This document shows positions 6,539-38,367 of a stretch of DNA of 50,743 nt, piece after piece. This DNA comes from a virus. The DNA is taken from IMG/VR virus record IMGVR_UViG_3300047557_003366, positions 1 through 50,743 of that record; one strand, 5' to 3'. The notes under the pieces are model-generated. The model worked only from the letters and a program-made list of their open reading frames with translations. It ran no database searches and was not told the DNA's origin. How positions within the stretch are numbered: the stretch's first letter is position 1; the number at the start of each line of letters is the position of its first letter. The position numbers and the translations under genes are program-made.

Positions 6539-6546
6539 TATTTATG
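6539..6546 (-). promoter_or_regulatory. Late promoter octamer CATAAATA
   Basis: Overlaps the stop codon of the giant gene and lies 4 bases before the 43-residue ORF. The expected start site falls at or near that ORF's ATG. It could drive the fibre genes downstream independently of the wedge operon. Confidence 0.5.
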
Positions 6547-15500: not shown

Positions 15501-17524
15501 CTTAATCCTAGTCCTAGATTTTGGCTAGTATCTCTGTAATTATTATTTCCAAGAGCGCTTCCAGTAAATCCAGTTTGGTTATTAATTATTTCTAAGAACT
15601 GACCAAGAAACTGGCTTCTGCTAATAACAGATATATCTTCATTGTTTGGATTAGCACTTAAGTTTTTAGGTATTTCATAGAACCCTTTGATTAAAGTTGG
15701 CGTTTCCTTGCTCCAGCTTTTAATTATTATTCTGGTATTATTTCTTGGTGCTACTGTAAATGTTACTTGGTTTTCTATAACAACATAATCAACATTTTTT
15801 TGACAAATTATCTCTTCATTATTCTCTGTAATTAAACTTACAAATATTGTTGGGAGAGTATTTGCTAATTGATTAGCTGGCTCTTGGTCTATCTCATAAG
15901 TTTTTTCTTCACCATCTGCTAAAAATTCATTGATTATATACTGTCTGCTTGGTTCTGGCGCGGTGTTCCAAGCGTTACTATAATAATCCCCAACCTTTGC
16001 AAACAAATTTCCAACATAGTTTACAGTTTTACCATCTGAAATGTATGAAATAGTTGTAGAAATTAAGTTGTTCGTAAAGACAAAATCTCCATATTGATCT
16101 AATTTTGCATTGATACCAAGCTCAGTGTCAATTGTGCTATTAGTGTCTGTTGTATACGAAAACACTGGACTACCATTAAAGGTTGATGACGGGTAGACAA
16201 CAGGATCATCTAACATATTGCCATTGTAATCATACAGCACAAATTGTGGGGGAACTCCAGGTACTATTTGCTGTCCATTTGTCACCCATGTAGAACCATT
16301 ATAATATATATTGTACCCTTGCAATGCACCAAAATTAACGGAGGCTCTGTCTCCAAATACTGGTGACCCATTTCCACTAGTGCCTGAGGTGTCTAAGGTC
16401 AATTCTATGTTTCCTTCAGACACTCCACTAACAATATAAATTCTGCCATATTCATTTGGGAATTGTTGCTTTAATGTAGAACTTATTCCCATAATTCTCA
16501 TGCCGTCTCTAAGTGGAATAAAATCTATTGTGTATGATGATTGTCCGACTATTGATCCTAGTAAGTCAGGCGTTGTAGTATCTACTATATCAATAATTCC
16601 ACGACTATGTATTCCATACTTGTATAGTTCAATATTTGGTAGAAATTCTATGATTGGTCTTCTTGATTGAAAAGACGTGATATCACTAATCTGCGTTTTA
16701 CTTACTTTGAGAATATCGTCATGGAACCACCGGTTAGTTAAACTCCACTGGTTCTCATCTTGACTTGCCCTGGAAATTGTTATGTATTGTTTGTCAGTAT
16801 ATTCTTGTGCACTATCCCAGCTATCTAAATCCCAGCCAACCGTATCCCATCCTGGATTGGAGGTGGGTGGAATTTCAATTAGAACGATACTTTTTCCTAC
16901 ACCTTCAATAACAAAAACTTCTTGATTATAAGCAATGTTTCTGTCAGCTGTAGGGACAACAACTAAACCACTTGTAAAATCTAAGGTGACATTTGCAGTT
17001 TGTCCAGTACTTCTATATCTGACCCATCCACTATAGGTATAATTTTGTTTACCTTGTACTTGATTAACAAAATCGGTGGTATCCAACAGTTCTATTGGAC
17101 TAGGACCGGATGGTAACCAAAAATACTTTGTAAAATTGACAAATTTATCAATATCTATCGGGGGACACCAAGAATAGTATTCCTGCTCAAAAAGTCTACT
17201 GTGGTTGGTAGTTATAGCGCCCTGAAATCTCAACTGATTTACTAAGTCGTCATAAAACAATGCATTTGTTAACCTGCCACTTTGAAAGTTTACACTTACG
17301 GCAGTTGGTGTTAACTGGTAATCTTGTCTATTTTTATCTGGCTCTTGAATATAAAAATCTTTTGAAGGAATGTACCATGGTGGTTTAATCCCTGCATAGC
17401 CAGAAATAAACTCAACGCTCTCAGGTTGAAACAATTGATCAACCGTTGCTGAGAACATTTTTCTTAATGTTTCAGACCTTAGATAATTAGGCAGTAAATC
17501 AATAGTTTTACGTTTGTCATCCAT
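6542..17524 (-). CDS. Giant (~3660-residue) baseplate/tail structural protein
   Basis: 3660 residues from ATG 17524, with an alternative GTG at 17533. The ATG overlaps the end of gp6 by 8 bases and has GGGTG at good spacing. The N-terminus (KTIDLLPNYLRSETLRKMF) is typical of wedge-associated structural proteins. Visible internal repeats: three Trp-Asp motifs (GWDTVGWDLDSWDS near residue 230; GWDNNEWNAITWN near 2635; SWDMDGWDMEAFDS near 3000), and about five ~65-residue beta modules of the form DGxxTxFxL...VxVdG...Yxi...vxFxxxPxxgxxIxI (near 540-610, 2665, 2885-2945, 3135-3200, 3250-3315). Position after gp25-gp6 is where T4 has gp7, gp8 and gp10, so it may replace several wedge proteins. No enzymatic motif was recognised. 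Exact homology is unproven. Confidence 0.75.
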   Translation of the reverse strand: MDDKRKTIDLLPNYLRSETLRKMFSATVDQLFQPESVEFISGYAGIKPPWYIPSKDFYIQEPDKNRQDYQLTPTAVSVNFQSGRLTNALFYDDLVNQLRFQGAITTNHSRLFEQEYYSWCPPIDIDKFVNFTKYFWLPSGPSPIELLDTTDFVNQVQGKQNYTYSGWVRYRSTGQTANVTLDFTSGLVVVPTADRNIAYNQEVFVIEGVGKSIVLIEIPPTSNPGWDTVGWDLDSWDSAQEYTDKQYITISRASQDENQWSLTNRWFHDDILKVSKTQISDITSFQSRRPIIEFLPNIELYKYGIHSRGIIDIVDTTTPDLLGSIVGQSSYTIDFIPLRDGMRIMGISSTLKQQFPNEYGRIYIVSGVSEGNIELTLDTSGTSGNGSPVFGDRASVNFGALQGYNIYYNGSTWVTNGQQIVPGVPPQFVLYDYNGNMLDDPVVYPSSTFNGSPVFSYTTDTNSTIDTELGINAKLDQYGDFVFTNNLISTTISYISDGKTVNYVGNLFAKVGDYYSNAWNTAPEPSRQYIINEFLADGEEKTYEIDQEPANQLANTLPTIFVSLITENNEEIICQKNVDYVVIENQVTFTVAPRNNTRIIIKSWSKETPTLIKGFYEIPKNLSANPNNEDISVISRSQFLGQFLEIINNQTGFTGSALGNNNYRDTSQNLGLGLSILQHRAPLLKLSVMNSTALEDISSINSAIDPMLAMQNAQRSYQRFYNRFLLTLFAQVKKLGGNQSPSGCDPTFINQLVTSTLKQINIGKTVDSPWTNSGPDGISGSYCSQQAQNPSWVPATATRLGITPAYQPIVYMDTSYTTPKLVIQCHDGSRIVMVNEQGEQLGTFVHGQNSTTNPEELTDPVAAAWLQFELNLFNNLPNAYKNSQANYVFPVTSYMPGKWRNTDYTRPEVIKLQRGSFDKWTISNQINYQANTGYQTTDQFSYNYRSVVDNDGYPVPGHWQGIYRWFYDTDRPHTHPWEMLGFSQMPEWWESEYGPAPYTNGNLALWQDLRDGYIRQGPRQGYYYQWSRPGLLSCIPVDDQGNLLPPYQAGCVSSLPDVYSARSEWIFGDGSPVESVWINSQEYPFILAQVGYLMKPARFIEYTWDSLRTQEIYANTANKQWLYVDTYSRRASNQFYVHRESPINLSIGITIPEESNLTYFGSCGFQHWVSEYLYTQGLNVTSYFGNLIRGGNVQLAHRMAGFINSDTVRTMVDSFGDIGYQSQIIPNDNLKTFLYRSTSIGEAIYSGVMIEQVKEGYKVYGYDTINQRFIIIPSNVNGPQTTVLVGNKRAIEYLSGMNETQEVLYGSILPTRQAVFDFLISYGRWLTSQGWVFEQFNADSNAVFDWSQSAKEFLFWSQGDWQNGTFITVSPSADEMKFEKKYGNIQFISGLFSGTYPIVDRSGILIQPQNFTTIRDDGSLRVKPDNEQGIFGLKLYRTTIESAIFWDNLTGFGDIIYQPLFDLRQQRIKIYAYRANDWNGRLDAPGFILTKNNNTNTWSMVPNYDNTANQFTQYFNIEQPKNFDLITNDNLVMKMSTELGAVARQDIQNLSRHLLGYQNRLYLQNLLLEDAIEFEFYQGFIRNKGTQTVINRLLRNTSIIPETSTFEYYEEWMMRNSWYGAVNLNNIIEFRLPQSQVTSNPQWIRLFSTSDIDPVNDDVLEIVPNDPIIVVPPESYQDKLFTLRTSYKPDVKTDLPLAGYVQLGETTYTVGNTSELFSLYNDRLSTTTPLQINDTVWQFTTDTGSWTSWVLVKALGQISNTLPSSTTGGPTVITTTSEHGLTDGDIIIIYGVSGVDLLNGTYVVSNVTPLTFQIDVSTFEPGVGGTILVYRPTRFSTIFERDSGTPPGGWPENILTYVDEGGQVEGAWTVYKYTNNNFISYRQQEYIINSSLVGNSKLYNIDTGSEVSVVTYWDPAQGRISGKADTEITYKTDFDPAKYNRGSSDNYAVSESEAWSSAQVGQVWWDLSTVRYIDYEQGDDRYRIQHWGKIASGTSVDVYEWIRTTISPTDWANAVASGESITENGRSYIPSGSVRNPDNPNWSEVTEYGPGNTAVIYYYYWVKNSIMSPGVPTRKLTTLNISRLIQDPSIDDLPWFAAISSRSIILGNVKRLLNSDKIVQRITYSSQPNNLNNYNQWQLIRQGDPTSPITDNAWQKLKASLVTFDGLGNDVPDYRLPSSQKYGTTIRPRQTWFINRVAASSLFVNTFNDILSSRVTPFVDDPNVVGWEAYFTMAEPYPPESEYDYFVSSLIERDSLLGAITNNQVVLVAPTAVTNNLWTMWKFISFDNTWELIQRQNYNTNNYWQYVDWYFTGYSSNTIITQTVQTTSDLENVTPTTNAVIKVLNNGNNKWQLYTWTGKWSLVGQQDGSIQVLSTVYDWQVTPGGFDSAPFAEVAFDSNASIEFANIIDGIKNVIFSAPNSLELNTLFFAMINYVPSEQLQVDWLLKTSDIILKGFNQPLEQTQLLQADTVDSILGFINEAKPYHVKIREFVTGKSKTDIANASIVDFDRPPGSPYVIEPDVDSADYSYYQAYQSWLNNYQTNGELVRNLATTIIFDRISTPELSPAWSYIWNTNVWEGGEGSTNGAIDRINSYYEPTAGMIPKIISELLSGAAYKGTRLQSFGFNFDIGWDNNEWNAITWNANSVDIENYLDQIIQGGAIPVYDTAVGNGIVTEFPLTKNVSNPNEIVVWSDNSLRVYGLDYYIPTYALSVQIINGGINYNVGDFLDVPAGNKIAATRLRVTSVQSGVVTGLEILGKGSYITVLPGPYTTEYPTLYPGLGSGLLLSIDWSCDFIRFMSPPISSAVPNVYVLYIGQTFGAAPTEESDTIYDGNEFIQPFVDDNHPEELYLFKARDSVLIDTITSKQGGRPLVSSRVYITDGVNSQFDLGITPQNNESVQVYLAGSLLEEGYLNDYVINYDSNRVVFVSTPTIGQKLQIFVISTGGGSRSIASAYTVNPGYGYIPGSAINLDTSMGAISGILEVSTVKLSNMYIEESWDMDGWDMEAFDSALNGSGYIVGDLLYLNEGSGTIVDGNLTILKVTEIDDFGGILSLEIQNPGNWSALPATNSFSMNRETPNTFVDASITLSWGVNTVSVNSPGLYARMPAQPITQQSSSEGTGATFNVKFTSTLQTYRYTGDGVETDFTVPGLTATIPQGVFCTIDGVNTPILTRIADGVRFASAPVYGATVIITTFSSPEYSVVTNTNIVITNPAQLTYTVDSEPRSTLPNYLTTIVTVNDQLITPPLMQQWVGDNSTVTFPITIDLTGALSTDVYVDQILTTAYSIVGANITFTFAPKSNADIQMVVIKTGTNYTIIGDQITFNSGILLLNDEVQISTYPQDIDYEYHMEEFAYDPTGIYNLTKSSYDPATIRVWVDGTLQTQGIDYTVSPGQNSIIDPAAVIKFNPDVHTGTVVVVNYMHSIPYRPSLAWRTLVYENTTKTTVLDFSRVTNLLSNVLTTSETIEIENYNAISFTNGQLGYVYINNELISFNSLVLAPTMTYPNRALLSGLGRNRLGTSGNPQSTYNAIYYNGDSSTVYFACEGPGVALAESVFVDGNIQINYDIDPDNADYEFVIDPPSLPAGRYVHFMKSAPNIGYKNIKIASLISNGTNLCHPISSVVRDAGSEVTPPMPYTWEASPNGFQYSRTTQSEFYQSHPYEP

Positions 17525-20500
17525 TTGTGGCACCCAATGTTATTTCAGTAAGGGCTGGAACTATTTGTACATCAGTTACCCTTGCTCCACTTATAAAGAT
17601 TTCATCGCTTGCACAGGGGATTTCAAATAAATCACCAAATTTTGCCTGTGCATTTAGTGGTGTTATTACGACACTGCCTACAATCGTTGCTAGGGTTTGA
17701 TGGATATACGCAGCTAACTCAGTAAAGAAAAAGCTTTGTCCAAAGTCCCAATTAGATAAAGCAAAATACTGATTAACAGTCTGAATAACCAGTGATTTTA
17801 CTTCATTATCTGTAACTGTTGTTCCTGGAGTTTTAACCACTTTGAATTTTGCCTGTAATGATGGATCTGCCTGTGTACCGAATAGTACTTTATATTTAAC
17901 CGGATGCCATATAATCTGGTCAGTCATCATTTTATATTGCTCAAGTGGTAGAAAATTAGCTTTTAGCTCAGCACTAGTAGGAGGTTGTGGTTTGGTTGCC
18001 GCACTTCCATTAGTTGCAATCCAGTTTCTAAAAACAATATCATATGATGAGGTCAACACATACATATCAATAATATTCATTACTGCTGGATTTATTCTTT
18101 GATCGCTTGGCGCGTAGTGTTTCCACAAATATGATAAATTATTTCTGCCTATACGCATCTTATGAGTGGTAGTCACATCCAACAATTCTTCATCCATGTA
18201 TTCATAAAACTTTTCTGTGCTGATTACATAGATTAAATCGCCGTTTTCCCATATTGAACTGCTAACGCTTGGAACTTGGGTTGGTGTATTATAAATTTTA
18301 TTTGTTGGTATATCTATTGGTTGCCAAAATTGGTAACCATCGCTGGATTGTTGTAGCTCCCAGAATAGCATTTTTTCAGCTGAAATAGATGGATTTACAA
18401 TTTCATTGTATTCATCGGGATTGTCGGGTATACCAAAATTAGTTCCTTCCCACATTGTAACTTGAACAGTTCTGGGGTCTTGATATCCATCAGGGTACGT
18501 ATACTGACCGGATATTTGCCACAGATAGTCTTCCCCAAGTGCAAGTCCACTAGTAGGATTTGGATTCACACTTAACACACTTACATAATCTCTTAGCGCA
18601 GACCCTGAGTTTGGGTCATATGTTTTACTTATATTTTCAAAATAAAAACGTGTTTGTCTGACGCTTTCAAATACGTAGGATAATGCTCTTGTGTATGCAG
18701 TCCATCCAGTGTTACTCCATTCAACTTTCATTAACCAACTGGCATCTTTATTTGTGCTACTAGTATTTCCAGTGAACTGCAAACTAAAAACTGGGTTAGT
18801 ACTTAGGTTATCTGCAGTGATTATTTTCCAGGAAAGGTTTGCTGTGTCATAGCGCAGACCAAATGTTCTCTGTTGTGCCATGGCAGCTGCTATTTCGGAT
18901 GTTTCCGCTGCGGTAAAAGTAGTTCTGAATGCTGCAATTACACTTGTTGGACTATCGTTGTTATCTACTAACCCACTTAATGTTATTGCACCAAGACCGT
19001 TTGCTAGTACTCCAGTTTGATTTTGTCCAGTTCCATTTCCAACTAACCCTATTACTGAACTTTGCTGACCACTTGCAAATGATATTAGTGCCCCTTGTGT
19101 GATATAATGTAATGAATTGTTTGTACTTACACTTTCTCCAACGGGCACTGCAACATTGTTAAGGTAAAATGCACCTGTACAACTCTTTGTTGCAGACGTT
19201 CTATTGGTCCAATCATATTCTTGTGGTATTGAATACCGTGGAAAATTATAGTAATAAAAATTCTTTAGTTGTAATGCCTCTGTTTGCTCACCTTGGCTAC
19301 CATTGACCATGGGTTGCAGTTCATTGGTGACTAGCAAAGTATAATTAACACCTGGATTAAAAGGAATCTCTCGCATGTTAAGTATGGTTTCACTGTATAG
19401 AATCCCATCTGTTCCAAAAACATTAAGTGCACTGTAATTTCCTGTTGGATCAGCAATGTCTAAGTACCTGCTTTGACCGCTGTATGTTCTGTTTACAGCT
19501 TTATTTTTAAGAATTTGACCATTACTTAAGGGGAAAAGATTATAATCTTCTCCATTTACCATGCGATCTTGTGTATAGTATGTCTGTGGAGCACTTCTGG
19601 CTATTCTAGCGTTGCTCTCAGTACTTTGTGCATTATTGATTGTATACTGTAGGTTACAGGTAAACGCGACATTCCACGCATTATTTAAATTATCAAGGTA
19701 TGAGAATGCAAACACTTGGTTAGTTAAATCACTGGGTCTTATTTGGTATGTAAGGTTGTTACTTATTCTGTACCAAATTCGTAACACACCAATTGGTACA
19801 TTACCAAAGTTGCCATCTGCAAATCGAATGCTTATTGCATCTTCTCCGTCTTGATCCCTGCTTATCACACTGTAAATATCGCGGATATCCTTATCAATAC
19901 TGTTATAAATTACGTTGAATCCATTGACGCTGGGAACTTTTGTCCAGTCAAGTGTTACAAGACCATTGCTATCAATATTTTGTACCCAAATATCAGTTTG
20001 ATTTATATTAGACGCCTGTATGTCTATAACACGATTTGGTATGGGAACACTAAGCTGGAAATCGCTGAAATCTAATGATCCTTGTTTAAAATACAAAAAG
20101 AACCCAGTGTCAGGACTTGCAAATCCATTTCCATCACGCCGGTATACGATGTTCCATGCATTTAACGGATTTGGACTAACCTCATAAAAATTCCCACTGT
20201 TCGCTAAGTTTGTTGTGGATCCTTCATTGAAATTAACATTTGCCAGTTCCATGTTTGTTTCATTTCCAGCCACATTAATATTAAATGGTATTACACTTGT
20301 TACTACTGGGGTGTTGTTCATGCTATAAAGTTCTGTTGGTATATTTCCAACCAACCCACTTTTACTAGGATCTCCAAATGTATTAGTGCTATTAAGTGTT
20401 GCATTTATCACCAGGATAAATTGTTCATACCAATCAGGGTTATTCTGGTCATTCCAAACAATTTGAATGTTTTGTAAGTTATTGCCAAAACTATCATAAA

Positions 20501-22880: not shown

Positions 22881-24482
22881 ATGCTTACCATTGATGCCAA
22901 TGTTGCAAATGCTCGCAAAGTATTTCGTATTGCTACCAAATACTCTCTGAATATTGATCCAGCTATTCATGAGATTTTGGCACCTAAGGAAGTTTCTACA
23001 ACTATTCCTGGCTTTTCATTTAAGCTTTTGCCATTTCAGGCGCAAGGGGTGGCATGGCTGGAGAGTCATCTAGGAACAGGAATCTTGGCTGATGAGCAAG
23101 GACTTGGTAAAACTATTCAAGCATTAGCGTATGCTCATAAAAATAATAAATTTCCACTGTTGATTGTTTGTCCAAACACGCTCAAGCTAAATTGGCGTAA
23201 TGAAATCATTTCAACTACTGGCAATCAGTATAAAATTAATATAGTTGGTAAACTTCTCAGTAAGTATCAAGAAAAACTCCAGAAAGAAAAGTATCCAAAT
23301 GTAACATATTCCAAGACTGCTGAAGTCGGATATGATGTTTACATTATTAATTATGAAATCCTAACTTCAAATCTGAAAAGTTTGTTTGAGATCAATTTTG
23401 AGCTTATGGTTTTGGATGAAAGTCATAAAATTAAAAATGGACTGTCTCAGAGAAGTATGGCATTCAGAACTCTTGCCACTGGAGAAGTTCCTGTAAGTGA
23501 AGGTGGTGCACGTGTTATTAGGTGGGATAAGGTATATACTCCAATTCCCTGTGTTATTCTTCTTAGTGGCACTCCATTGTTGAATAGGCCAGTTGAACTT
23601 TTTTCCAGTTTAAATGCAATTTCTAGATATGTGCCACAATTTAGTAAGTATAAAGCTTTTGTTATTAGATATTGTAACCCTGTGTACAATGGTTTTGCAC
23701 TTAATTGTCAAGGTTTTGATGCAAAGACCGCACCAGAATTACATGAACTTTTGTGCACACACACTATGCTGCGTCGTGTTAAACAAGATGTTTTGACAGA
23801 ACTCCCTGAAAAAGCGTGGCAAACTATTCCATTAGAATTTAATAGATCTGAATATGACAAAGTAGAACGGGCATTTTCTGGAATGGACTGGAGAAGTGGC
23901 ATGGAAACTATAGTGCAATTTGGTGGCAATCCCCCAAAAAGTGACGCACGAATTGTTGCAATTCAAAAACTAAGAGAAATTGCCGCATATGCAAAAGTTG
24001 ATAGTGTTATTGACTGGATTAAGGATTATGTACAGGAGGGTGAAAAACTCGTTGTATTTGCACACCATAGAGCTATTATTGACAAAATTTGCGTGGCACT
24101 GCGTGAGGACAAAACACTGACCCATTCTGTGCGTGAAATTCATGGTGAAATATCAGCAGAAGACCGCCAGCAAGCAGTTAATGATTTTCAAAATAACTCA
24201 TATGTTAAAGTTATTGTCATTAGTATTTCTGCGGGTGGGTATGGTCTTACACTGACTGCTGCAAAAGCTGCGGCATTTGTGCAACTTCCGTGGTCACCCG
24301 GTGAGATTCAACAGTGTGCTGATCGTATTCACCGTATTGGACAAAAAAATTCTGTTACTATCTACAATCTAATTGCGGAAAATACAATTGAAGAGGACAT
24401 CGCCAATCTTTTGATGCATAAAGGAAAAATTTTGGATGCAATCCTTGATAAAAATCAAAAAATTAATACAATTGATCTTTAA
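22881..24482 (+). CDS. SNF2-family (SMARCAL1-type) DNA helicase
   Basis: 533 residues. All core SF2/SNF2 motifs are present: FQAQGVAWL (Q-type), ADEQGLGKT (Walker A, ~70-78), DESH (179-182), LLSGTPLLNRPVELF (~227-241), ISAGGYGLTLTAA, and QQCADRIHRIGQ (~477-488). The QLPWSPGEIQQ...RIGQ ending resembles SMARCAL1/HARP annealing helicases. The HARP domain that normally precedes the motor is missing and is encoded by the gene at 21907. A likely role is ATP-driven reannealing or fork regression, functionally comparable to T4 UvsW. TAGGAGA precedes the ATG. Its stop overlaps the convergent gp5 stop by 3 bases within a palindrome. Confidence 0.92.
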   Translation: MLTIDANVANARKVFRIATKYSLNIDPAIHEILAPKEVSTTIPGFSFKLLPFQAQGVAWLESHLGTGILADEQGLGKTIQALAYAHKNNKFPLLIVCPNTLKLNWRNEIISTTGNQYKINIVGKLLSKYQEKLQKEKYPNVTYSKTAEVGYDVYIINYEILTSNLKSLFEINFELMVLDESHKIKNGLSQRSMAFRTLATGEVPVSEGGARVIRWDKVYTPIPCVILLSGTPLLNRPVELFSSLNAISRYVPQFSKYKAFVIRYCNPVYNGFALNCQGFDAKTAPELHELLCTHTMLRRVKQDVLTELPEKAWQTIPLEFNRSEYDKVERAFSGMDWRSGMETIVQFGGNPPKSDARIVAIQKLREIAAYAKVDSVIDWIKDYVQEGEKLVVFAHHRAIIDKICVALREDKTLTHSVREIHGEISAEDRQQAVNDFQNNSYVKVIVISISAGGYGLTLTAAKAAAFVQLPWSPGEIQQCADRIHRIGQKNSVTIYNLIAENTIEEDIANLLMHKGKILDAILDKNQKINTIDL

Positions 24483-24506
24483 AGATTGATGGTTTCCGTA
24501 TTAATT
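24461..24506. terminator. Nested palindromes at a convergent stop-stop junction
   Basis: The SNF2 and gp5 genes converge and their stop codons overlap inside the 12-bp palindrome ATCTTTAAAGAT (24475-24486). This is flanked by a 9-bp inverted repeat AATTAATAC (24461-24469) and GTATTAATT (24498-24506). The arrangement could fold on either strand and act as a weak bidirectional terminator, but it lacks a GC-rich stem. Confidence 0.3.
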
Positions 24507-27500
24507 ACAGTGTTACTCTGATTCTGGGGCAAGTTAGTTGCTGGTCCTTGCATAAACTGTACTACTTCTGATCTTCTACGGATTTTTAGCTGAGGCACAA
24601 CTTTATTTGCTCCATTTTTAGTATGCTGTAACCATGAATTGGGGACTTTTTGTAAATTGTCATCATTGAATGCTTTCAATGCTGGACTTGATGTAAACAT
24701 CATTTGTCCAATGTTAAATGCAAGGCTGCAAAACATATCATATTGTGTCTGACTACAATCTTTTTTAATAAGAGGTCTCATCCAATTTTGAAGTAGTCTC
24801 ATGTCTTCTTCAAACAGATCATCAATATTTTGCTGACTTAGATTTTGTTCCAGACTTAACGTCTGTCCTTTTATTCTGATTGTTTTTGTTCGTATTTCTT
24901 CTGGCGTTAAGTTATGTCCATATCCTATTTCCTGATGTGGTGGTTCACCAACTGAAATAGGTCTATAGCTGCCGTTTTCATACGATTTAATAAATTGAGA
25001 TCCTGGCGTACTTAGTTGTAATGTTGCTGGGGCAAGTAACGATGAAGTGTCTAATGAACTTTCCAATCTATATAAAGGTTGATTTCGTGAATTATACCCA
25101 GATCCTCTGTATACAGCGGCTGTCATATCACTTCTGGGAGACCCATACACGTCTAATGGATCGTTACTATTGACCACAATCTCTCCATCTCTTAATCCCG
25201 TTGCAGTATCTAAACTTGTAGCGTCTCGTATATTTGCATAATTTCTGCCACCGTGGTTTTCATATGGCTCATGATAAGGCAAATGCGGTAAAATGGTATC
25301 AGTCATAATAGCGACAACATTTCCTATGCTATTGACCACTGCATCAGTTTGACGATAACTTACTGGGCCTACTGCTTGTGCTGCTGAAATTCCAGCCACT
25401 GGTGTTATGCCATTCCAGTCAACTCTTACTGCACTTGCCACCATATTCTGGCCCATAGACAGTTGAAAATCGCCTTTGATACTTTCATGTACATAACCAC
25501 CTGCAACACGGTTTATATTTTTAAACGTTGTTGTAAAACTATTACCGCCTGCTAAATGGTGCATGTCTTTGCTACTTGACACAAACATATGTTGGCTACT
25601 CAACACATGCATACTATTTGTGCTTTCTATTCGTATGAATCCACCCTGAAGCGTTGGATCAGGTTCGCTTATACTGCCACTGGCTGCTGCACTTTGGTCA
25701 CTTGGGGTAGCTGGATATCCATCTACTTCTCTACCTGTTGGTTGTTGCCCCACTAAGTCAGGACGTTCACGGTATAAATTAGCCTCTCGTTTTCTACGCG
25801 GAATCAATCCAGTGGGATTACCTTTCCATCCCTTATAACCAAACTCTTCTATAAGCCGTGCTGCACCGTCTATATCGTTTCGATTTATTAAATCAGTGAG
25901 GTTATTTGCCAGAAGTGGATTTAACCCTCCAGGACCACAATTATAAGTATAACTTACCAGTGCGGCTTTCTGATATGGTCCTAAAACTTCCCACGCGCCC
26001 TTGAGTTTGGCACTGGTTGGATTAGCACCCCTATTAAGCAAATCTTGTTGAAAAAGACCTTCTGCTTGTTCTGCAGTCATTACTGTATCACGTCCACCAG
26101 GACCAACAATCGGAACAGTTCCTGCGCTGCCACAATTTAAAACTGTTGCCCCACTTTTAATATCAAATTTCATTAAATGACCAAATCCTATACTATAGTC
26201 TATATTTTGGTTAGGTGGATCCTTATACGCAGTTAAATGTGGCTTCCCTCCACCTTCTTCTTGCTTGATAAATTGTGATGCTATTTCTTGCCATGATACG
26301 GGTGAAGTTGTTGGGGGTGGAGACGCACCGGGTGCAGTTTGGGTAACTTCAGGTGCTGAAGATTGCTGGGCTGTTGTGCTACTGGTTTTCCCTTGTCCTT
26401 GTAGCTTTTCCAGAGTAGCATTTGCTGATGATTCTTCAGCCACCAAACTATTTACTTGTGCCTCTGTATAAAATTCAGGATTAAATCTGGCGTAATCAGC
26501 TGCAACTCTTGCACTTTGCGCAGCTAATGTAGCCTTAGTCAAATCTTCAAAATACTGTGGGGTTGTATCTTGGTTGCTACCTGTATTATTACTTGTTGTA
26601 GATGCGTCTTGGATAAAAAGAGAACTAGCTTGATTGGCAACTAATGCATAATCAACAGGGTGTAAATTATCGTTTGTGCTAAATGTTTGTAAATTTACCA
26701 CACTGTCATTGTTAGATAATGCAAAATCGTTTACAACAATATTGGCCTGATAATTATATGGCAGTATCCAGATATATTTTTGTGCTTTTAAAGATTCTCT
26801 AATTTTTTGCAGATTTGACTGCAGTAATTCTGCGTCACCCCCATTTACAAAATCATATGATCCTACACTGACTACTGCGTTGACAAACCCTGATAAGTTT
26901 GTATTATTTTCTAATTTCAGAGCAACTTGAGTACTAGTGTCAGTTTGACCAGCTGACACTAAACTTGCTTTAATTCTTGCTCCTATACCCTGTGCAATAC
27001 TATCACCAACCGCTACGCTAGGTCCTTTTGGTTGTGGTGGGGGTTGGTCAGACAGTGGGTTTACTGTGATATTAGCACTGGCAACTTTTTTGCCACGTGC
27101 CCTCATATTAATATCACGGCCACTTTCAATGTTGACATCTAAATCTGCGCGTAAATTTAAGCTTCCCTGACTTCTAATACTTATATCATCCTGTGCATAA
27201 ATGTCAATTCTTCCGTTTGCATCCAAGCTAATCCAATTTTTGCCATCAACTGAATTTAAATATATAAACCCACTTGTATCATTAAGCATAATCTGTGCGC
27301 CACTACGTGTGCGGAGTCGTATGTAATTGTTGGCATCACTATCATCAAATACAAATTGACTACCACCCGGTGTAAGAATACCATACACACTATTAGTAGG
27401 TTCTGCTCGCCTTGCACCGCTATCGCTAACGCCTCGTACAGTGTCTTTTTCCAATCCCTGAATTACAAGTTGTTCGGCAAGTGGTTCATACAATGGTCTC

Positions 27501-27988
27501 GCTGGATTATTGATGTCAGGTATTGCTGTTCTTTTATTATATTCTGCAACTGGTAACTTTTCTGTTGTGTTTTGTCCAGGAAGACCTGGAACCATATGAT
27601 TCATATTTTGTTGATAGAGACACCCTAACCATATACCTCGCCCTGGGTCTCCATTTATAAAAGCACATATTACTTCATTATTAATGTCTGGTGGAATAAA
27701 CCACATTCCATAACTTTTTTGTGTGGCTGCAAAAGTATTTTCATTTTTGCTATCTATAATGTTTGTTGCGCCTGCAAACGGTGAGCAATAGTTTACGATA
27801 AACCATCCTCCTTCGTTATTTGGGTCTCCGCCTAGTTCTGGAATCCATACTTTTAAACGACCCATTCTAAGTACATCATCGGCTACTTTTACAAATCCTA
27901 CATAAAGCTTGTCCTGTAACGTAGATCGTCCAGGTCCTTGTAAATCGTAATTTTTAGGAGTAGATACGCTTCTTCTCAGTGTTACCAT
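24479..27988 (-). CDS. gp5: Baseplate hub spike gp5 with SGNH-like domain and two GH24-like domains
   Basis: 1169 residues, against 575 in T4. Domains in order: gp5-type OB fold (~25-125, YVGFVKV...GRLKVWIPELGG); short beta-helix repeats (~222-300); a GDSL/SGNH-like hydrolase region (~322-460) with GDSIAQG at 328, GSYD at 376-379 and DxxHP at 440-444; a linker; a GH24 lysozyme (~568-740) with catalytic-type EE at 577-578, YKD at 588-590 and SIGFGH at 599-604; further beta-helix (~780-850); and a second GH24-like region (~995-1145) with SYENG at 1002-1006 and EIGYGH at 1020-1025. In T4 gp5 forms the membrane-piercing spike and its lysozyme opens peptidoglycan. The second GH24-like copy lacks a clear catalytic Asp. 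GGG precedes the ATG. Confidence 0.88.
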   Translation of the reverse strand: MVTLRRSVSTPKNYDLQGPGRSTLQDKLYVGFVKVADDVLRMGRLKVWIPELGGDPNNEGGWFIVNYCSPFAGATNIIDSKNENTFAATQKSYGMWFIPPDINNEVICAFINGDPGRGIWLGCLYQQNMNHMVPGLPGQNTTEKLPVAEYNKRTAIPDINNPARPLYEPLAEQLVIQGLEKDTVRGVSDSGARRAEPTNSVYGILTPGGSQFVFDDSDANNYIRLRTRSGAQIMLNDTSGFIYLNSVDGKNWISLDANGRIDIYAQDDISIRSQGSLNLRADLDVNIESGRDINMRARGKKVASANITVNPLSDQPPPQPKGPSVAVGDSIAQGIGARIKASLVSAGQTDTSTQVALKLENNTNLSGFVNAVVSVGSYDFVNGGDAELLQSNLQKIRESLKAQKYIWILPYNYQANIVVNDFALSNNDSVVNLQTFSTNDNLHPVDYALVANQASSLFIQDASTTSNNTGSNQDTTPQYFEDLTKATLAAQSARVAADYARFNPEFYTEAQVNSLVAEESSANATLEKLQGQGKTSSTTAQQSSAPEVTQTAPGASPPPTTSPVSWQEIASQFIKQEEGGGKPHLTAYKDPPNQNIDYSIGFGHLMKFDIKSGATVLNCGSAGTVPIVGPGGRDTVMTAEQAEGLFQQDLLNRGANPTSAKLKGAWEVLGPYQKAALVSYTYNCGPGGLNPLLANNLTDLINRNDIDGAARLIEEFGYKGWKGNPTGLIPRRKREANLYRERPDLVGQQPTGREVDGYPATPSDQSAAASGSISEPDPTLQGGFIRIESTNSMHVLSSQHMFVSSSKDMHHLAGGNSFTTTFKNINRVAGGYVHESIKGDFQLSMGQNMVASAVRVDWNGITPVAGISAAQAVGPVSYRQTDAVVNSIGNVVAIMTDTILPHLPYHEPYENHGGRNYANIRDATSLDTATGLRDGEIVVNSNDPLDVYGSPRSDMTAAVYRGSGYNSRNQPLYRLESSLDTSSLLAPATLQLSTPGSQFIKSYENGSYRPISVGEPPHQEIGYGHNLTPEEIRTKTIRIKGQTLSLEQNLSQQNIDDLFEEDMRLLQNWMRPLIKKDCSQTQYDMFCSLAFNIGQMMFTSSPALKAFNDDNLQKVPNSWLQHTKNGANKVVPQLKIRRRSEVVQFMQGPATNLPQNQSNTVINTETINL

Positions 27989-31705: not shown

Positions 31706-33454
31706 ATGAATAATCTGGCCTCCAAGACAAAATATCTTACAAATAGAAATATTTTGGAAGAAATTCACAAAAGTAAAGTTTCCTATTGCTCTTATTTAGA
31801 CCCCGCTTATGTAAATTACGATTTCATAGTTGACGATCTTAAACAGGTTACCAAAAAACGTATTGAGGAAGCGCGCCGAAAGAAATTAGCTGATCTAACT
31901 TCAATTATGAAAAAAGAAAATATCAGTAAAGGTTTACCGGCAGACAATATATCTATAAAATTAAAAGATATACCAGAGGAAAGCATAGTTGTCCGTTTAA
32001 TGACAAAAGACCATATTCCGCTTGTGGAAAGCATAAATGCAAAAACTAAAGAAACAGAACTGAATCCATTACGCTGTAATTTTCCTCCATTTCAGCACTA
32101 CATACGTAAAAATGGAGAATTAGTGTGCGTGTTAAAAAGTCACTGGATTGGTGGATTACAAAATGGACACTTTTCTAAAGACCATGGACAAATGACAAAA
32201 ACTCTGGTCAACATGTTTATTAAGCTAGTAGAACGATACAGTTATAAAAGTAACTGGAGAGGGTATTGTGTAGATTCTGAAACAGAAGCACTTACTGGAA
32301 GAGGTTGGCTAAACATAGACCATATAACAGCCAGTGATAAAATACTATCATATAACGGCAGTGACACGGTTTGGTCTAATATAAAGTCAATATATAAAGG
32401 TGAATTCAAAGGAAAAATGCATAGACTTACTACAGGAAACTTTGACACCCTTATCACACCTAATCACAAATTGGTTACTCAGCGCGGTCTTATTCCAGTA
32501 GAACATGTTCTTCAATCAGATAAAGTAATTCTTATGGGTCCTGCGTTGGTTAACGAAAAGACTAAACACGCAGATGAATACATACAACTTGCCTCGTATA
32601 TTATTAAGTTTTCAAACTTTGATCCAACTGAAATTAAAATTGAGTTAAAAAATAAAGATGATGTGGCAAATTTAGAATCTTGTTTGACAAAACTTAGGTT
32701 GGAATATAGTATGATCTTGCCTAAAAAACGTAATTTTACAATACACACCTCTAATTCAAAGCTTAAAAATATAATTGGAGTAAACAACAGAATAATGCCT
32801 GCATTTATTTTTGAACTTAGCAGTATTCAGAGAGAAAATTTGATACACCTTATATTCGGCTCTAATCCTGAAAATAAAAGTTTCAGGACAAAGTATAAAG
32901 ATATAGCAGACTTACTTTCTATGCTATGTTCAATATCTGGTTACAGAACAAAAATAGTCACTAAAAATAAAATAATACATTTAAAAATATTATCTGTGCG
33001 TAATAATACGGTACTTGCCAGAAATATTGACTTTAATGGCGGAAACAACGCAGGTAAAAAAGACAAAACAGCTGGACAAAGAAAGTTACTGCATCCCAAC
33101 AAACCAACAAAGACATATGATGGAATGGTTTGGTGTCCAGAAACAGAATATGGGTGTTTTATAGCCAGACGAAACGGTACTGTTTATTTAACAGGCAATA
33201 CGTACCTTGATGAAATGAAGAGTCAGGCATTATTGCAACTAAGTCAGGTGGGGTTACAATTTGACGAGAGTAGAAGTAGCAATCCATTTGCCTATTACAC
33301 TCAAATTTTAACTAACAGTTTCAGACGAATACTTGCAATAGAAAAAAATCATCAAAATATCAGAGATGATATTCTTATTATGAATGGAGTTGCACCATCA
33401 TATACAAGGCAAACAGAAGACCAGATAAATCAAAATAAAAACAATAACGAGTAA
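31706..33454 (+). CDS. gp55: Late-transcription sigma factor gp55 interrupted by an intein
   Basis: 582 residues as encoded. The N-extein (1-187) contains SYCSYLDPAYVNYDFIVDDL and ends RYSYKSNWRGY. The C-extein (499-582) resumes with TYLDEMKSQALLQLSQVGLQ and SNPFAYYTQILTNSFRRIL, the sigma region-2-like core of T4 gp55. Joining them gives a continuous 271-residue sigma factor (T4: 185). gp55 binds host RNA polymerase and recognises TATAAATA late promoters, many of which occur in this window. The intein sits inside the most conserved part of the protein, so the factor should be inactive until splicing. AAGGAAA precedes the ATG, with a host-type promoter upstream. Confidence 0.9.
   Translation: MNNLASKTKYLTNRNILEEIHKSKVSYCSYLDPAYVNYDFIVDDLKQVTKKRIEEARRKKLADLTSIMKKENISKGLPADNISIKLKDIPEESIVVRLMTKDHIPLVESINAKTKETELNPLRCNFPPFQHYIRKNGELVCVLKSHWIGGLQNGHFSKDHGQMTKTLVNMFIKLVERYSYKSNWRGYCVDSETEALTGRGWLNIDHITASDKILSYNGSDTVWSNIKSIYKGEFKGKMHRLTTGNFDTLITPNHKLVTQRGLIPVEHVLQSDKVILMGPALVNEKTKHADEYIQLASYIIKFSNFDPTEIKIELKNKDDVANLESCLTKLRLEYSMILPKKRNFTIHTSNSKLKNIIGVNNRIMPAFIFELSSIQRENLIHLIFGSNPENKSFRTKYKDIADLLSMLCSISGYRTKIVTKNKIIHLKILSVRNNTVLARNIDFNGGNNAGKKDKTAGQRKLLHPNKPTKTYDGMVWCPETEYGCFIARRNGTVYLTGNTYLDEMKSQALLQLSQVGLQFDESRSSNPFAYYTQILTNSFRRILAIEKNHQNIRDDILIMNGVAPSYTRQTEDQINQNKNNNE
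32267..33199 (+). other. Intein within gp55 (311 residues, degenerate endonuclease)
   Basis: Residues 188-498 of the gp55 precursor. Block A begins CVDSETEALTGRGW. Block B is LITPNHKLV (TPNH at 251-254). Blocks F/G read GCFIARRNGTVYLTGN, followed by Thr as the +1 nucleophile. The penultimate residue is Gly rather than the usual His. The middle (~288-430) resembles a two-repeat LAGLIDADG region (YIQLASYIIKFSNFD; FIFELSSIQRENLIHLIFG), but neither helix ends in the catalytic Asp/Glu pattern, so the endonuclease looks inactive. Splicing is inferred from the exact continuity of the gp55 core across the junctions. Confidence 0.88.
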
Positions 33455-33457
33455 TCT

Positions 33458-35005
33458 TCAAAATTTGTATTTTTTCATGCACAACTGCAGGTTTTCGTGA
33501 ATTTCGTTATTAATTTTTTTGTTTAATACGTGCTGTTTTTTAACTTCATTCCAATTAGGTAATCCAACAAGCATTTCAAATAATTTGTTGGCATCTACAT
33601 TATGTTTTGAAGCAAGGGTTTTAACATCTGTGCCTTTTGCAAACTGAGTAATCAACGACTCAGCCAGATTTCTCTTACGTAATGTGGCTGATATTACTGA
33701 AGGAAGCCTCTTTAATTTTCCTGCAATTTCTGACCATTTTTTTCCTTGCTTACGCATTTTAACTGCAGTTCTTATATCTTGCGGTGTCATTCTGTAATAT
33801 TTTTCGTCTCGTTGTTTCTTTAACTGCTTGTAATTTGGCAGAGCTTTAAGTTTGCTGATAATAGTGCTCATAGATGTTCCATATTTTTCTGACATTTCCT
33901 TTGGAGAAACTCCAGCAGAAAAATCTTTTGCCATACGATTGATATCTCTTTTTCCAAAAGTTTTTTTAACTTGCTTGGCAATACGTGGCTCTTGAGCAAC
34001 GTCTGTTTGTGGAATTTCTGTATCTGGTGTTGAGACAGGTTCTGCCGCAGGTTCTGCCTTTGTTGTAACGGATGGTTCAGCAGCTTGTGCTGACTGTGTT
34101 GGCGTTGCTGGTTCTTCTGGATATGGTTTCAAGGTAGGTGAAATTAACTGTGGCGAATACACTCTTGTTGGTTGATGGTTTCTGCGACGTGATAAATTTT
34201 CAGATCTTAGTCTGACTAATTGCTCATAGTTATTAAGTGATTCCAGATTATACAAAATTGAGCTATTGCTTATTTCATATTTCCCCATCATTTCATTCAG
34301 ACTCATTCCACTTGCATAGTCTGCTGCCATGAGTTGAATTCTTTTATCTGCGGTGTCAAATTCTTTATTTGGTTCTCTTGCTGCTCTATATACAGTTGTT
34401 TGATTTCGTCCTAATGTTTGAGCAATCGTTTGCCAACTTGCACCTTGTCTTCTTAGTTCTTGTGCCTGATTTACTTCTTCTCTGGAAAGTGTTTGACGAC
34501 CAATGATTTGTCTTCTTTTGGCGTCAAGTGTTGAAAAATTATCTAATTTTTGTAGTTTTGACTTGATTGTACCATATGTTAATCCATAAGTTCTCTCTAA
34601 ATCAGCTACTGATACGCCATCAGCCCAATCCTTGCCTATTATTTCTAGCTCTTCTTGTGAATAACTGCGTTTATGATCAGCACGAATAGCTCTTTCAGGA
34701 TAAAATGCGTCTAATGCCTGCTGAATTTCCCATCCAGGCTTTTTCATTTCCTGTGCGATTGTAGGCACACTGTAATTTTTGTCGTAAAGCATAATAAGAA
34801 GAATTTTTTGGTCGTCGTCCCAGCTTTCCAACCCTTGTCCTTCTATTAAAAGTTTGTTCTCAATTAGTTCAATACAATGATCCCAATCTTCAAATCCAAA
34901 CTTTTCACATGTTTCAAAAATATAACTGGCTCGTTGATACTTAGTTTCAACTAATTCAAGCGATTCAACCAAATTAATATAATTTCTTATGCTATAATTA
35001 TCCAT
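33458..35005 (-). CDS. Tandem helix-turn-helix protein with possible capsid-targeting leader
   Basis: 515 residues from ATG 35005, which has TGAGG 6 bases upstream; an ATG at 35017 is less likely. The first ~30 residues (YSIRNYINLVESLELVE) resemble short leaders on T4-like internal virion proteins, with Leu-x-Glu sites of the type cut by gp21. The rest is an array of about seven HTH-like units of two types. Type A, as in GVSVADLERTYGLTYGTIKSKL, lies near 118-163, 222-266, 353-397 and 449-491. Type B, as in RRQGASWQTIAQTLGRNQTT, lies near 64-105, 175-212 and 407-446. A Pro/Ala/Thr-rich linker (~280-340) divides the array. A late octamer lies 21 bases upstream. Probably a multi-site DNA-binding, virion-associated protein; function unknown. 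Confidence 0.65.
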   Translation of the reverse strand: MDNYSIRNYINLVESLELVETKYQRASYIFETCEKFGFEDWDHCIELIENKLLIEGQGLESWDDDQKILLIMLYDKNYSVPTIAQEMKKPGWEIQQALDAFYPERAIRADHKRSYSQEELEIIGKDWADGVSVADLERTYGLTYGTIKSKLQKLDNFSTLDAKRRQIIGRQTLSREEVNQAQELRRQGASWQTIAQTLGRNQTTVYRAAREPNKEFDTADKRIQLMAADYASGMSLNEMMGKYEISNSSILYNLESLNNYEQLVRLRSENLSRRRNHQPTRVYSPQLISPTLKPYPEEPATPTQSAQAAEPSVTTKAEPAAEPVSTPDTEIPQTDVAQEPRIAKQVKKTFGKRDINRMAKDFSAGVSPKEMSEKYGTSMSTIISKLKALPNYKQLKKQRDEKYYRMTPQDIRTAVKMRKQGKKWSEIAGKLKRLPSVISATLRKRNLAESLITQFAKGTDVKTLASKHNVDANKLFEMLVGLPNWNEVKKQHVLNKKINNEIHENLQLCMKKYKF

Positions 35006-35026
35006 GATGTGCCTCATTATATATTT

Positions 35027-36119: not shown

Positions 36120-37895
36120 ATGTTGATAATTAAAAATGTTACAATTCGGAATTTTTTGAGTTGCGGTAATGTTACTCAAACTGTTGAACTTAATAAAAAT
36201 GGTTTAAATCTGGTAATAGGTGAAAACCTTGACCTTGGTGGAAATGGCAGTAGAAATGGTGTTGGTAAAACCACATTACTTCAGGCAATTACGTTTGGCT
36301 TATATGGACAGGGATTAACAAATATTCGCGTTAATAATCTGATTAATAATATCAATCAAAAGAACATGATGGTTGCTATTGAATTTGATAAAAATGGCAG
36401 AAGTTACAGAATTGAAAGGGGGCGCAAACCTACTTTTTTCCGGTATATTGTTGATGGGAAAAATATGGAAGAGTCTACAGATGAATCGCAGGGTGAAGGT
36501 CGCGAAACACAAAAAGAAATTGATCAAGTTCTAGGCATGAGCCACTTGTTATTCAAGCATGTTGTGGCGTTAAATGCATATACCGAACCATTTTTAAGTT
36601 TGGGTGCACAAAAACAGCGTGATATAATAGAAGAACTACTTGGCATAACACTTCTCAGTCAAAAAGCCGACAATCTAAAACTATTAATCAAAGATACAAA
36701 AACCGCAATTGAACAAGAAGAATTTAAAATCAAAACTATCAAACAAAGCAATGAGAGAATACAGCTTTCAATTAATGAAATCCAAAGAAAATCTGATAAC
36801 TGGGACAACACCAATAAAAAAACAATAGAAAATCTTAATTCTGCAATTGAAAAATTACAAGAACTAGATTTATCGGTAGAAATTCAATCTCATAAAGACA
36901 ATGAAATTTTTAAAAAGCAAACTATACTGGTGGACAATTTACAAAAGCAGGCAAATTCAAAAAGTAAACTATTGCAAAACTACAAACAGCAATTAAATGC
37001 AATAATATTAAACTATGAACAAGCAAAGGACCATGAATGCCCAACATGCGGTCAAGAGTTGCATGATGACAAGCATGATCAAATTATCAAATCGTTAGAA
37101 GAAAAACTTATTAGTATGGATTCTTCAGTTAAAGATGCAGAAACAGATTACGACACAACCAAAAATAGTCTTGACGCTGCAACCAAAGAGTTGTCAAAGT
37201 ATAAAAATACTTCTACGGTATATGATAACCTAGAACAGGCATTAGCTCATAAAAATACATTGCAGCAGTTTATGAACGATCTAGATAAAGAGATTAATGC
37301 AAGCAACCCATTCAAAGATCAGGCAGATACTCTCAGTAACAATCTTCAAGAAGTTACATATGATAACTTGAATGTTCTTTCAATTGAAAAAGATCATCAA
37401 GAGTTCTTGCTTAAACTACTTACAAATAAAGATAGTTTCATCCGTAAGAAAATCATGGATCAAAATCTGTCATATTTAAATATAAGATTAAGTGACTATC
37501 TGGAACGACTTGGTCTTCCTCATCAGGTTAAATTCTTAAATGATTTATCAGTTGAAATCCAGTTATATGGTCAAGATTTAGATTTTGATAATTTAAGCAG
37601 AGGTGAGCGTACACGACTTATACTGGGGCTAAGCTGGGCATTTCGTGATATTTTTGAAAATACATCTCATTCAGTAAACTTGGTTTTTGTTGATGAATTG
37701 CTAGACAGTGGTCTTGATGGACTTGGATTAGAAAACGCCATTGAAGTATTGAAAAAGATGGAATATGAAAGAGAGAAAAATATATTTGTTATTAGTCATC
37801 GAGAAGAATTAGTAAATCGTATTCATAACATATTGACTGTTATTAAAGAAGGAAACTTCACCCAGTTTAGTTGGGATTACTCTCATCAGGTTTAA
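36120..37895 (+). CDS. gp46: Recombination endonuclease subunit gp46 (Rad50/SbcC-like)
   Basis: 591 residues from ATG 36120, which has CAGGAG upstream; in-frame extension into gp47 is rejected. SMC-like ATPase: Walker A NGVGKTT (46-52), long coiled-coil arms, a Zn-hook CPTC (307-310), ABC signature LSRGERTRLILGL (~490) and Walker B VFVDELLDSGLDG (~521). It partners gp47 in end resection. T4 gp46 is 560 residues. The last 29 bases overlap the convergent minus-strand gene at 37867. Confidence 0.94.
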   Translation: MLIIKNVTIRNFLSCGNVTQTVELNKNGLNLVIGENLDLGGNGSRNGVGKTTLLQAITFGLYGQGLTNIRVNNLINNINQKNMMVAIEFDKNGRSYRIERGRKPTFFRYIVDGKNMEESTDESQGEGRETQKEIDQVLGMSHLLFKHVVALNAYTEPFLSLGAQKQRDIIEELLGITLLSQKADNLKLLIKDTKTAIEQEEFKIKTIKQSNERIQLSINEIQRKSDNWDNTNKKTIENLNSAIEKLQELDLSVEIQSHKDNEIFKKQTILVDNLQKQANSKSKLLQNYKQQLNAIILNYEQAKDHECPTCGQELHDDKHDQIIKSLEEKLISMDSSVKDAETDYDTTKNSLDAATKELSKYKNTSTVYDNLEQALAHKNTLQQFMNDLDKEINASNPFKDQADTLSNNLQEVTYDNLNVLSIEKDHQEFLLKLLTNKDSFIRKKIMDQNLSYLNIRLSDYLERLGLPHQVKFLNDLSVEIQLYGQDLDFDNLSRGERTRLILGLSWAFRDIFENTSHSVNLVFVDELLDSGLDGLGLENAIEVLKKMEYEREKNIFVISHREELVNRIHNILTVIKEGNFTQFSWDYSHQV

Positions 37896-38367
37896 AAACT
37901 CTGTAATTTTTGGTTCTTACAGATTGTTCATCTGGTGATTCATTTGGTGGAATGAATTTTATACCGCTAACATTTTTGTTGTAGTATTTTTTTGTTACAC
38001 CATCTGGAAGAGTTTGTCGTAGCACATCTTCGTAGACATGTGCTACTACCTCTGCATAGTGCAGTGATCCTTTAGTTTTATGTAACGATTCTATAATAAA
38101 CTTGTAATTTTGTTTACCTTTTTGTTCAATTGACTCATTAAGATGCGTAGATGAGCTTGTATATGTCTTCCAATTAGATGACGACCGCACATGTTTGCGA
38201 TTTTTCCTACCTTTTACGATTTTACGTTTTAATTTTGTAAATTGTTTTTTCCCAATATATTCTCTGCCAGTATCAATCTCAATAACTCTGTATATAAATC
38301 CAAACCAATCATCAGGGTTAAATTTAAAATTGCATTCCCAATGACCGATATCATCTAACTCATCCAT
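37867..38367 (-). CDS. Phage protein related to GIY-YIG-type nucleases
   Basis: 166 residues. The N-terminal part reads WFGFIYRVIEIDTGREYIGKKQF, a GIY-YIG-like pattern (given here as FGFIYRVIEI and REYIGKKQF), followed by a very basic stretch (KLKRKIVKGRKNRKHVRSSS) and SNWKTYTSSSTHLNESI. Proteins with YIGKK...SDWKxYxSS are widespread in T4-like phages and often annotated as putative endonucleases, but their activity is mostly unproven. A late-type octamer lies just 6 bases upstream of the ATG. The 3' end overlaps gp46. Confidence 0.6.
   Translation of the reverse strand: MDELDDIGHWECNFKFNPDDWFGFIYRVIEIDTGREYIGKKQFTKLKRKIVKGRKNRKHVRSSSNWKTYTSSSTHLNESIEQKGKQNYKFIIESLHKTKGSLHYAEVVAHVYEDVLRQTLPDGVTKKYYNKNVSGIKFIPPNESPDEQSVRTKNYRVFKPDESNPN

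Follow-up and report, generated by a model that had tools for sequence, protein, structure and literature searches.

What is the long in-frame insert in the gp55-type late sigma factor gene of the virus record IMGVR_UViG_3300047557_003366, and what becomes of a protein that is the master switch of T4-type late transcription when its gene is interrupted in this way? We analysed positions 1-50,743 of the record (50,743 nt), and "the window" denotes this whole stretch. Judged by its genes for portal, prohead protease, baseplate wedge and SbcCD-like gp46/47, the window phage is a T4-like myovirus.

A late sigma factor gene interrupted in frame

The gp55-type gene occupies 31706..33454 on the plus strand, as do all of its parts described here, and encodes a precursor of 582 aa, not counting the stop. 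Its first part, an N-extein of 187 aa ending in SNWRGY (31706..32266), matches PHROG 12791 (E 9e-77) and is 52-60% identical to its closest relatives, and its last part, a C-extein of 84 aa starting with TYLDEM (33200..33451), matches PHROG 234 (E 7e-15), is 66-79% identical to its closest relatives and aligns with T4 gp55 from helix H3 onward. Late-sigma PHROGs thus match both flanks of the insert, and together with the alignment to the sigma-R2 residues of T4 gp55 they identify the exteins, 271 aa in total, as gp55. Between them lie 311 stop-free codons (32267..33199), from the Cys codon at 32267-32269 to the Asn codon at 33197-33199; the insert starts with Cys, ends with Thr-Gly-Asn and is followed by Thr (NWRGY|C...TGN|TYLDEM). 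A preliminary description had proposed a 311-residue intein between NWRGY and TYLDEM, and its coordinates, frame and sequence proved exact. That the insert is an unrelated free-standing gene was considered and rejected.

Intein signals and class

Searched alone, the insert matched the TIGR01445 intein_Nterm model with an E-value of 8e-4, under the curated cut-off, and the Spl DnaX mini-intein in the PDB with an E-value of 0.004, while a Pfam search of the window copy returned no intein match. Since family models by themselves give only modest scores, relatives were needed; the sequence signals from the window insert alone are weak but consistent, and become overwhelming once the relatives described below are added. 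An AlphaFold model of the insert (mean pLDDT 93.3) predicts a HINT fold joined to a LAGLIDADG fold, and its best group of PDB fold matches comprised the TliVMA and PhoVMA inteins, PI-PfuI and PI-SceI, followed by I-DmoI; the top matches are inteins bearing a homing endonuclease.

The residues expected of a class 1 intein are present: Cys1 of block A as N-terminal nucleophile (32267..32269), TPNH in block B (T64 and H67; 32456..32467), the terminal Asn311 that closes blocks F and G (MVWCPETEYGCFIARRNGTVYLTGN, 33125..33199), and Thr at +1 as second nucleophile (33200..33202), in addition to the predicted HINT fold and the in-frame position in a conserved protein of which empty-site alleles exist. 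The penultimate His that is usual, though not obligatory, in class 1 inteins is replaced by Gly. Class 3 inteins lack the N-terminal nucleophile and carry a WCT triplet, Trp at B:12, Cys at F:4 and Thr at G:5. This class was rejected, as Cys1 is present and B:12 is Leu69 in the window; the 62 distinct inteins of the family (see below) have Leu, Phe, Ile, Met or Val at B:12 and in no case Trp. With Cys1 present and no Trp at B:12, the insert falls into class 1 by definition. The other two WCT residues do occur, with block positions assigned from motifs: C290 at F:4 is invariant and T309 at G:5 is found in 59 of the 62, so that the family, combining these residues with Cys1, may stand chemically between class 1 and class 3.

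A family of inteins at the same gp55 site

When the window intein was used as a single-sequence query, IMG/VR yielded no relative. A tblastn search of phage records led to Synechococcus phage B23 (MN695335), a sequenced isolate whose gene b23_0289, annotated as a hypothetical protein, encodes a T4-like gp55; its insert aligns across all 311 window residues with 36.8% identity and interrupts gp55 at the identical junction, here called gp55-a. An IMG/VR scan with the N-extein only, which is blind to the presence of an intein, was then informative on occupancy. Among the 80 loci in the matches listed, the exteins were directly joined (NWRGY|TY...) in 76, two stopped at a contig edge and two carried inserts at the same point (L005, 180 residues; L008, 336 residues), so that 76 of the 78 related gp55 genes whose site could be read lacked an insert. 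The preliminary description had named such a search for empty alleles among metagenomic gp55 genes as a test that could refute the intein, and at least 76 uninterrupted sites were thus found. Scanning IMG/VR with an alignment of four inteins gave 115 matching stretches, and in all 80 of these that were examined gp55 was interrupted at the identical junction wherever the ends were visible (the contigs of L152 and L162 start within the intein). These occupancy numbers are not estimates of prevalence, since both scans are limited by their search patterns and cover at most 80 loci each. A search of genome contigs added one same-site intein, L164, on a contig in a MAG named Prevotella, and two distant inteins.

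Counting the window, at least 82 complete inteins, 62 of them distinct, occupy gp55-a, and their sizes range from 180 to 346 aa. The junction position is retained in the shorter gp55 of cyanophage/T4 type, for example PNFANY|SYKEDL. All 62 distinct inteins share Cys1, T64, H67, W289, C290, P291, T293, E294, R301 and Asn311 without exception, and wherever the +1 position can be read in a relative it holds Thr or Ser. The penultimate Gly recurs in 60 of the 62 and is, to judge from these sequences, the norm of the gp55-a family. The preliminary description had rightly pointed to this Gly in place of His, but as a family trait it is no sign of decay. A mycobacteriophage class 1 intein with a penultimate Gly splices completely, and changing this Gly to His slows its splicing (PMC5050341).

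It had also been noted that no intein was known to be described at this gp55 site. Within the part of the open-access literature covered by our search there is no description of an intein in gp55 or in any phage late sigma factor, and the insertion site appears to be new to the literature; its occupation is nevertheless widespread and involves many phages. The element is therefore of a known kind, a class 1 intein, at an apparently new and widespread site, and not a new mechanism.

Decay of the endonuclease region

Both LAGLIDADG catalytic acids, the Glu of TEG in block C and the Asp of DGDG in block E, are kept in 59 of the 62 distinct inteins, and the endonucleases of these relatives are presumed active from their sequences. 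The window intein retains a degenerate LAGLIDADG homing endonuclease region at about residues 93-275 (32543..33091), with a fold like those of I-DmoI and intein endonucleases. Its block C remnant, YIQLASYIIKFS (32579..32614; ..VELxGWIVTEG in others), has KFS in place of TEG, with Phe115 instead of Glu, and its block E remnant, NLIHLIFGSNP (32837..32869; ..LLxTMIDGDG in others), has GSNP in place of DGDG, with Asn200 instead of Asp, so that neither of the two LAGLIDADG helices carries its catalytic acid, as the preliminary description had recognised.

On average the window intein shares 0.62 identity with the family across the splicing region, a normal value for the family, but 0.24 across the endonuclease region, where most other members listed reach 0.37-0.47. 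The next lowest among the members listed, L161, has 0.25, but its splicing part has diverged too. The gap between splicing and endonuclease identity is the largest in the window intein (0.387; family mean 0.191, SD 0.035). In divergence, the window's endonuclease part thus stands clearly apart from the family, whereas its splicing part shows the conservation usual among the others. As it is read in frame with gp55, the endonuclease part tolerates no stop or frameshift even if it is useless, and its open frame is consequently no sign of endonuclease function. With the splicing residues kept, both acids lost and the least conserved endonuclease region of the family, the intein would no longer be mobile through its own enzyme, the endonuclease part drifting freely; the earlier suggestion of lost mobility is borne out to this extent. 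The endonuclease domain is gone altogether in the 180-aa mini-intein L005 and mostly gone in the 255-aa inteins L158-L160, all at gp55-a.

Position of the site and proposed splicing of gp55

When aligned with T4 gp55 (taken from AF158101), with a gap of two residues at the junction, gp55-a falls at about Y63|T64 in T4 numbering. In the cryo-EM structure of T4 gp55, E70, D74 and E77 of helix H3 lie on the clamp helices of RNA polymerase, and N13, L54, R57, F86, H95, Y97 and T99 lie in promoter pockets (PMC7892883). The junction directly precedes H3 and separates the pocket residues N13, L54 and R57 from F86, H95, Y97 and T99, so that the intein splits sigma-R2 in two. The structure predicted for the precursor (pTM 0.59) has one helix, at 165-181, that ends just before the insert and another, at 501-518, that starts just after it, with low confidence at 182-186. 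Given a site in sigma-R2 just before the helix that binds RNA polymerase, the unspliced precursor is probably inactive. We propose that after translation the intein would excise itself and ligate the sigma-R2 halves into a gp55 of 271 residues, and that before splicing the precursor would neither dock on RNA polymerase in the proper way nor read the promoter. With an intein in the polymerase-docking domain of gp55, the entire virion programme would hinge on protein splicing.

The preliminary description had suggested that splicing could act as a timer on the switch to virion production, and we considered whether such a dependency may itself be under selection, slow or conditional splicing delaying active gp55 and timing late transcription, with the dead endonuclease region kept for control. 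A site in the domain that binds RNA polymerase and promoter leads one to expect that splicing gates activity, the penultimate residue tunes precursor accumulation in the mycobacteriophage intein (PMC5050341), and conditional splicing is reported for the DnaB inteins of M. smegmatis (PMC6195587). On the other hand, a size range of 180-346 aa and the poor conservation of the window endonuclease region argue against a regulatory role for which this region is kept, the phage intein tested with a penultimate Gly splices faster than its His version (PMC5050341), and most relatives among the N-extein matches listed have no intein at all. We consider a regulated switch of this kind quite unlikely, and likewise regard it as unlikely that virion production begins at a time fixed by the rate or conditions of gp55 splicing, with selection on this keeping the immobile copy.

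It is very improbable that the insert is a degenerate Hint domain, folded and permanently retained, with which gp55 works unspliced. The loss of splicing is conceivable where the endonuclease has already degenerated, but drift in the remainder of the insert has spared all splicing residues, among them both junction nucleophiles and the Asn, empty alleles and a mini-intein exist, and the insert is positioned inside the sigma-R2 domain. As little credence can be given to an endonuclease region still active through an unusual arrangement of acids, because, intact as its predicted LAGLIDADG fold is, KFS and GSNP stand where both acids are retained in 59 of 62 relatives, and the PhoVMA intein, likewise devoid of the active-site acids, has been called degenerated and inactive (PMC8966425). 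The window insert is almost certainly a class 1 intein at a recurrent site with a dead endonuclease, presumably retained because gp55 needs it to splice, where splicing itself is inferred from comparative evidence.

A probable homing cycle and possible transfer

In the proposed cycle the gp55-a family would spread by means of its LAGLIDADG homing endonuclease, and the window copy, having lost both acids, would not be self-mobile and would persist only since gp55 needs splicing. The empty, full, degenerate and mini forms found at one site fit the intein homing cycle, a model summarised in PMC8966425. Identities of inteins and exteins were moderately correlated (r = 0.51), and some pairs have far closer inteins than exteins, such as L087 and L088 (inteins 93%, exteins 65%), which suggests transfer. 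Parsimony on the extein tree requires at least eight changes of occupancy, just three of them forced by well-supported branches; the tree has long branches and is poorly resolved, so that any tally of gains, losses or transfers would be uncertain. In the tree of splicing domains the three endonuclease-deficient inteins did not group together (weak support). At one site of one gene, gp55-a combines empty and full alleles with others that are catalytically dead or lack the endonuclease, a natural series for studying the homing cycle in phages and for asking whether the splicing rate affects phage timing.

Possible late promoters and neighbouring genes

The window shows no enrichment of TATAAATA, the T4 late promoter in its exact form. 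TAAATA, a motif picked after inspection, occurs in the 90 nt preceding 8 of 14 virion genes as compared to 2.2 expected, and in seven of these eight it lies 26-39 nt upstream (starts at 43310, 46531, 47776, 40672, 31598, 4602 and 6401). These boxes may be a less strict version of the T4 late promoter, and their position upstream of virion genes is what the use of a gp55-type factor would lead one to expect.

Rfam and tRNA searches of the window were empty. Several other genes, all on the minus strand, were observed. Directly convergent with gp55 lies 33461-35017, encoding 519 aa with several helix-turn-helix-like matches (a D5-like regulator and the DNA-binding families of invertases and transposases). 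The gene at 37870-38367 (166 aa), whose PHROG matches are homing endonucleases and one entry labelled NAD synthetase, adjoins the gp46/47-like genes and is a possible free-standing homing endonuclease. A very large ORF of 3663 aa (6542-17533) lies among tail and baseplate genes, and in a baseplate-hub protein of 1169 aa (24482-27988) PHROG matches mark two separate endolysin-like regions.

Comparison with known systems

A second group of inteins interrupts the same sigma factor at another site, site b (L149:5150-6124, L151:5135-6085, L155:5144-6115, and also L169-L172), which lies between ..FYTQIIKN and CFRRV.. at about N104|A105 of T4 gp55. Unlike gp55-a, site b is about 39 codons downstream, has Cys at +1, and its inteins are kin not to those of gp55-a but to inserts in other genes, some of them ribonucleotide-reductase-like, their nearest relatives including inserts in apparent ribonucleotide reductase and primase genes. 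The site-b genes also carry the site-a intein, so that one sigma factor holds two.

Next nearest to the window intein in phage records are the portal-protein inteins of Gordonia and mangrove phages and the mycobacteriophage methylase inteins, which align over the full length but are only 21-29% identical and sit in other host proteins and at other sites. The intein in gp51 (RDF) of mycobacteriophage Bethlehem is likewise a phage class 1 intein with a penultimate Gly, and was shown to splice (PMC5050341); its host protein differs. The PhoVMA intein of Pyrococcus horikoshii (PDB 7qst) shares with the window intein a folded LAGLIDADG domain without active-site acids, and this studied intein, whose LAGLIDADG active-site residues are absent, has been described as degenerated (PMC8966425), but it is archaeal, resides in the catalytic subunit of a V-type ATPase and is 17% identical. 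Among these known systems the B23 intein resembles that of the window most closely, with the same host protein, the same junction and end-to-end homology, whereas it has 340 aa, keeps both LAGLIDADG acids, is not annotated as an intein and follows a shorter N-extein of cyanophage/T4 type. A "hypothetical" gene of a sequenced cyanophage is thus an interrupted sigma factor, which bears on the annotation of many metagenomic phages.
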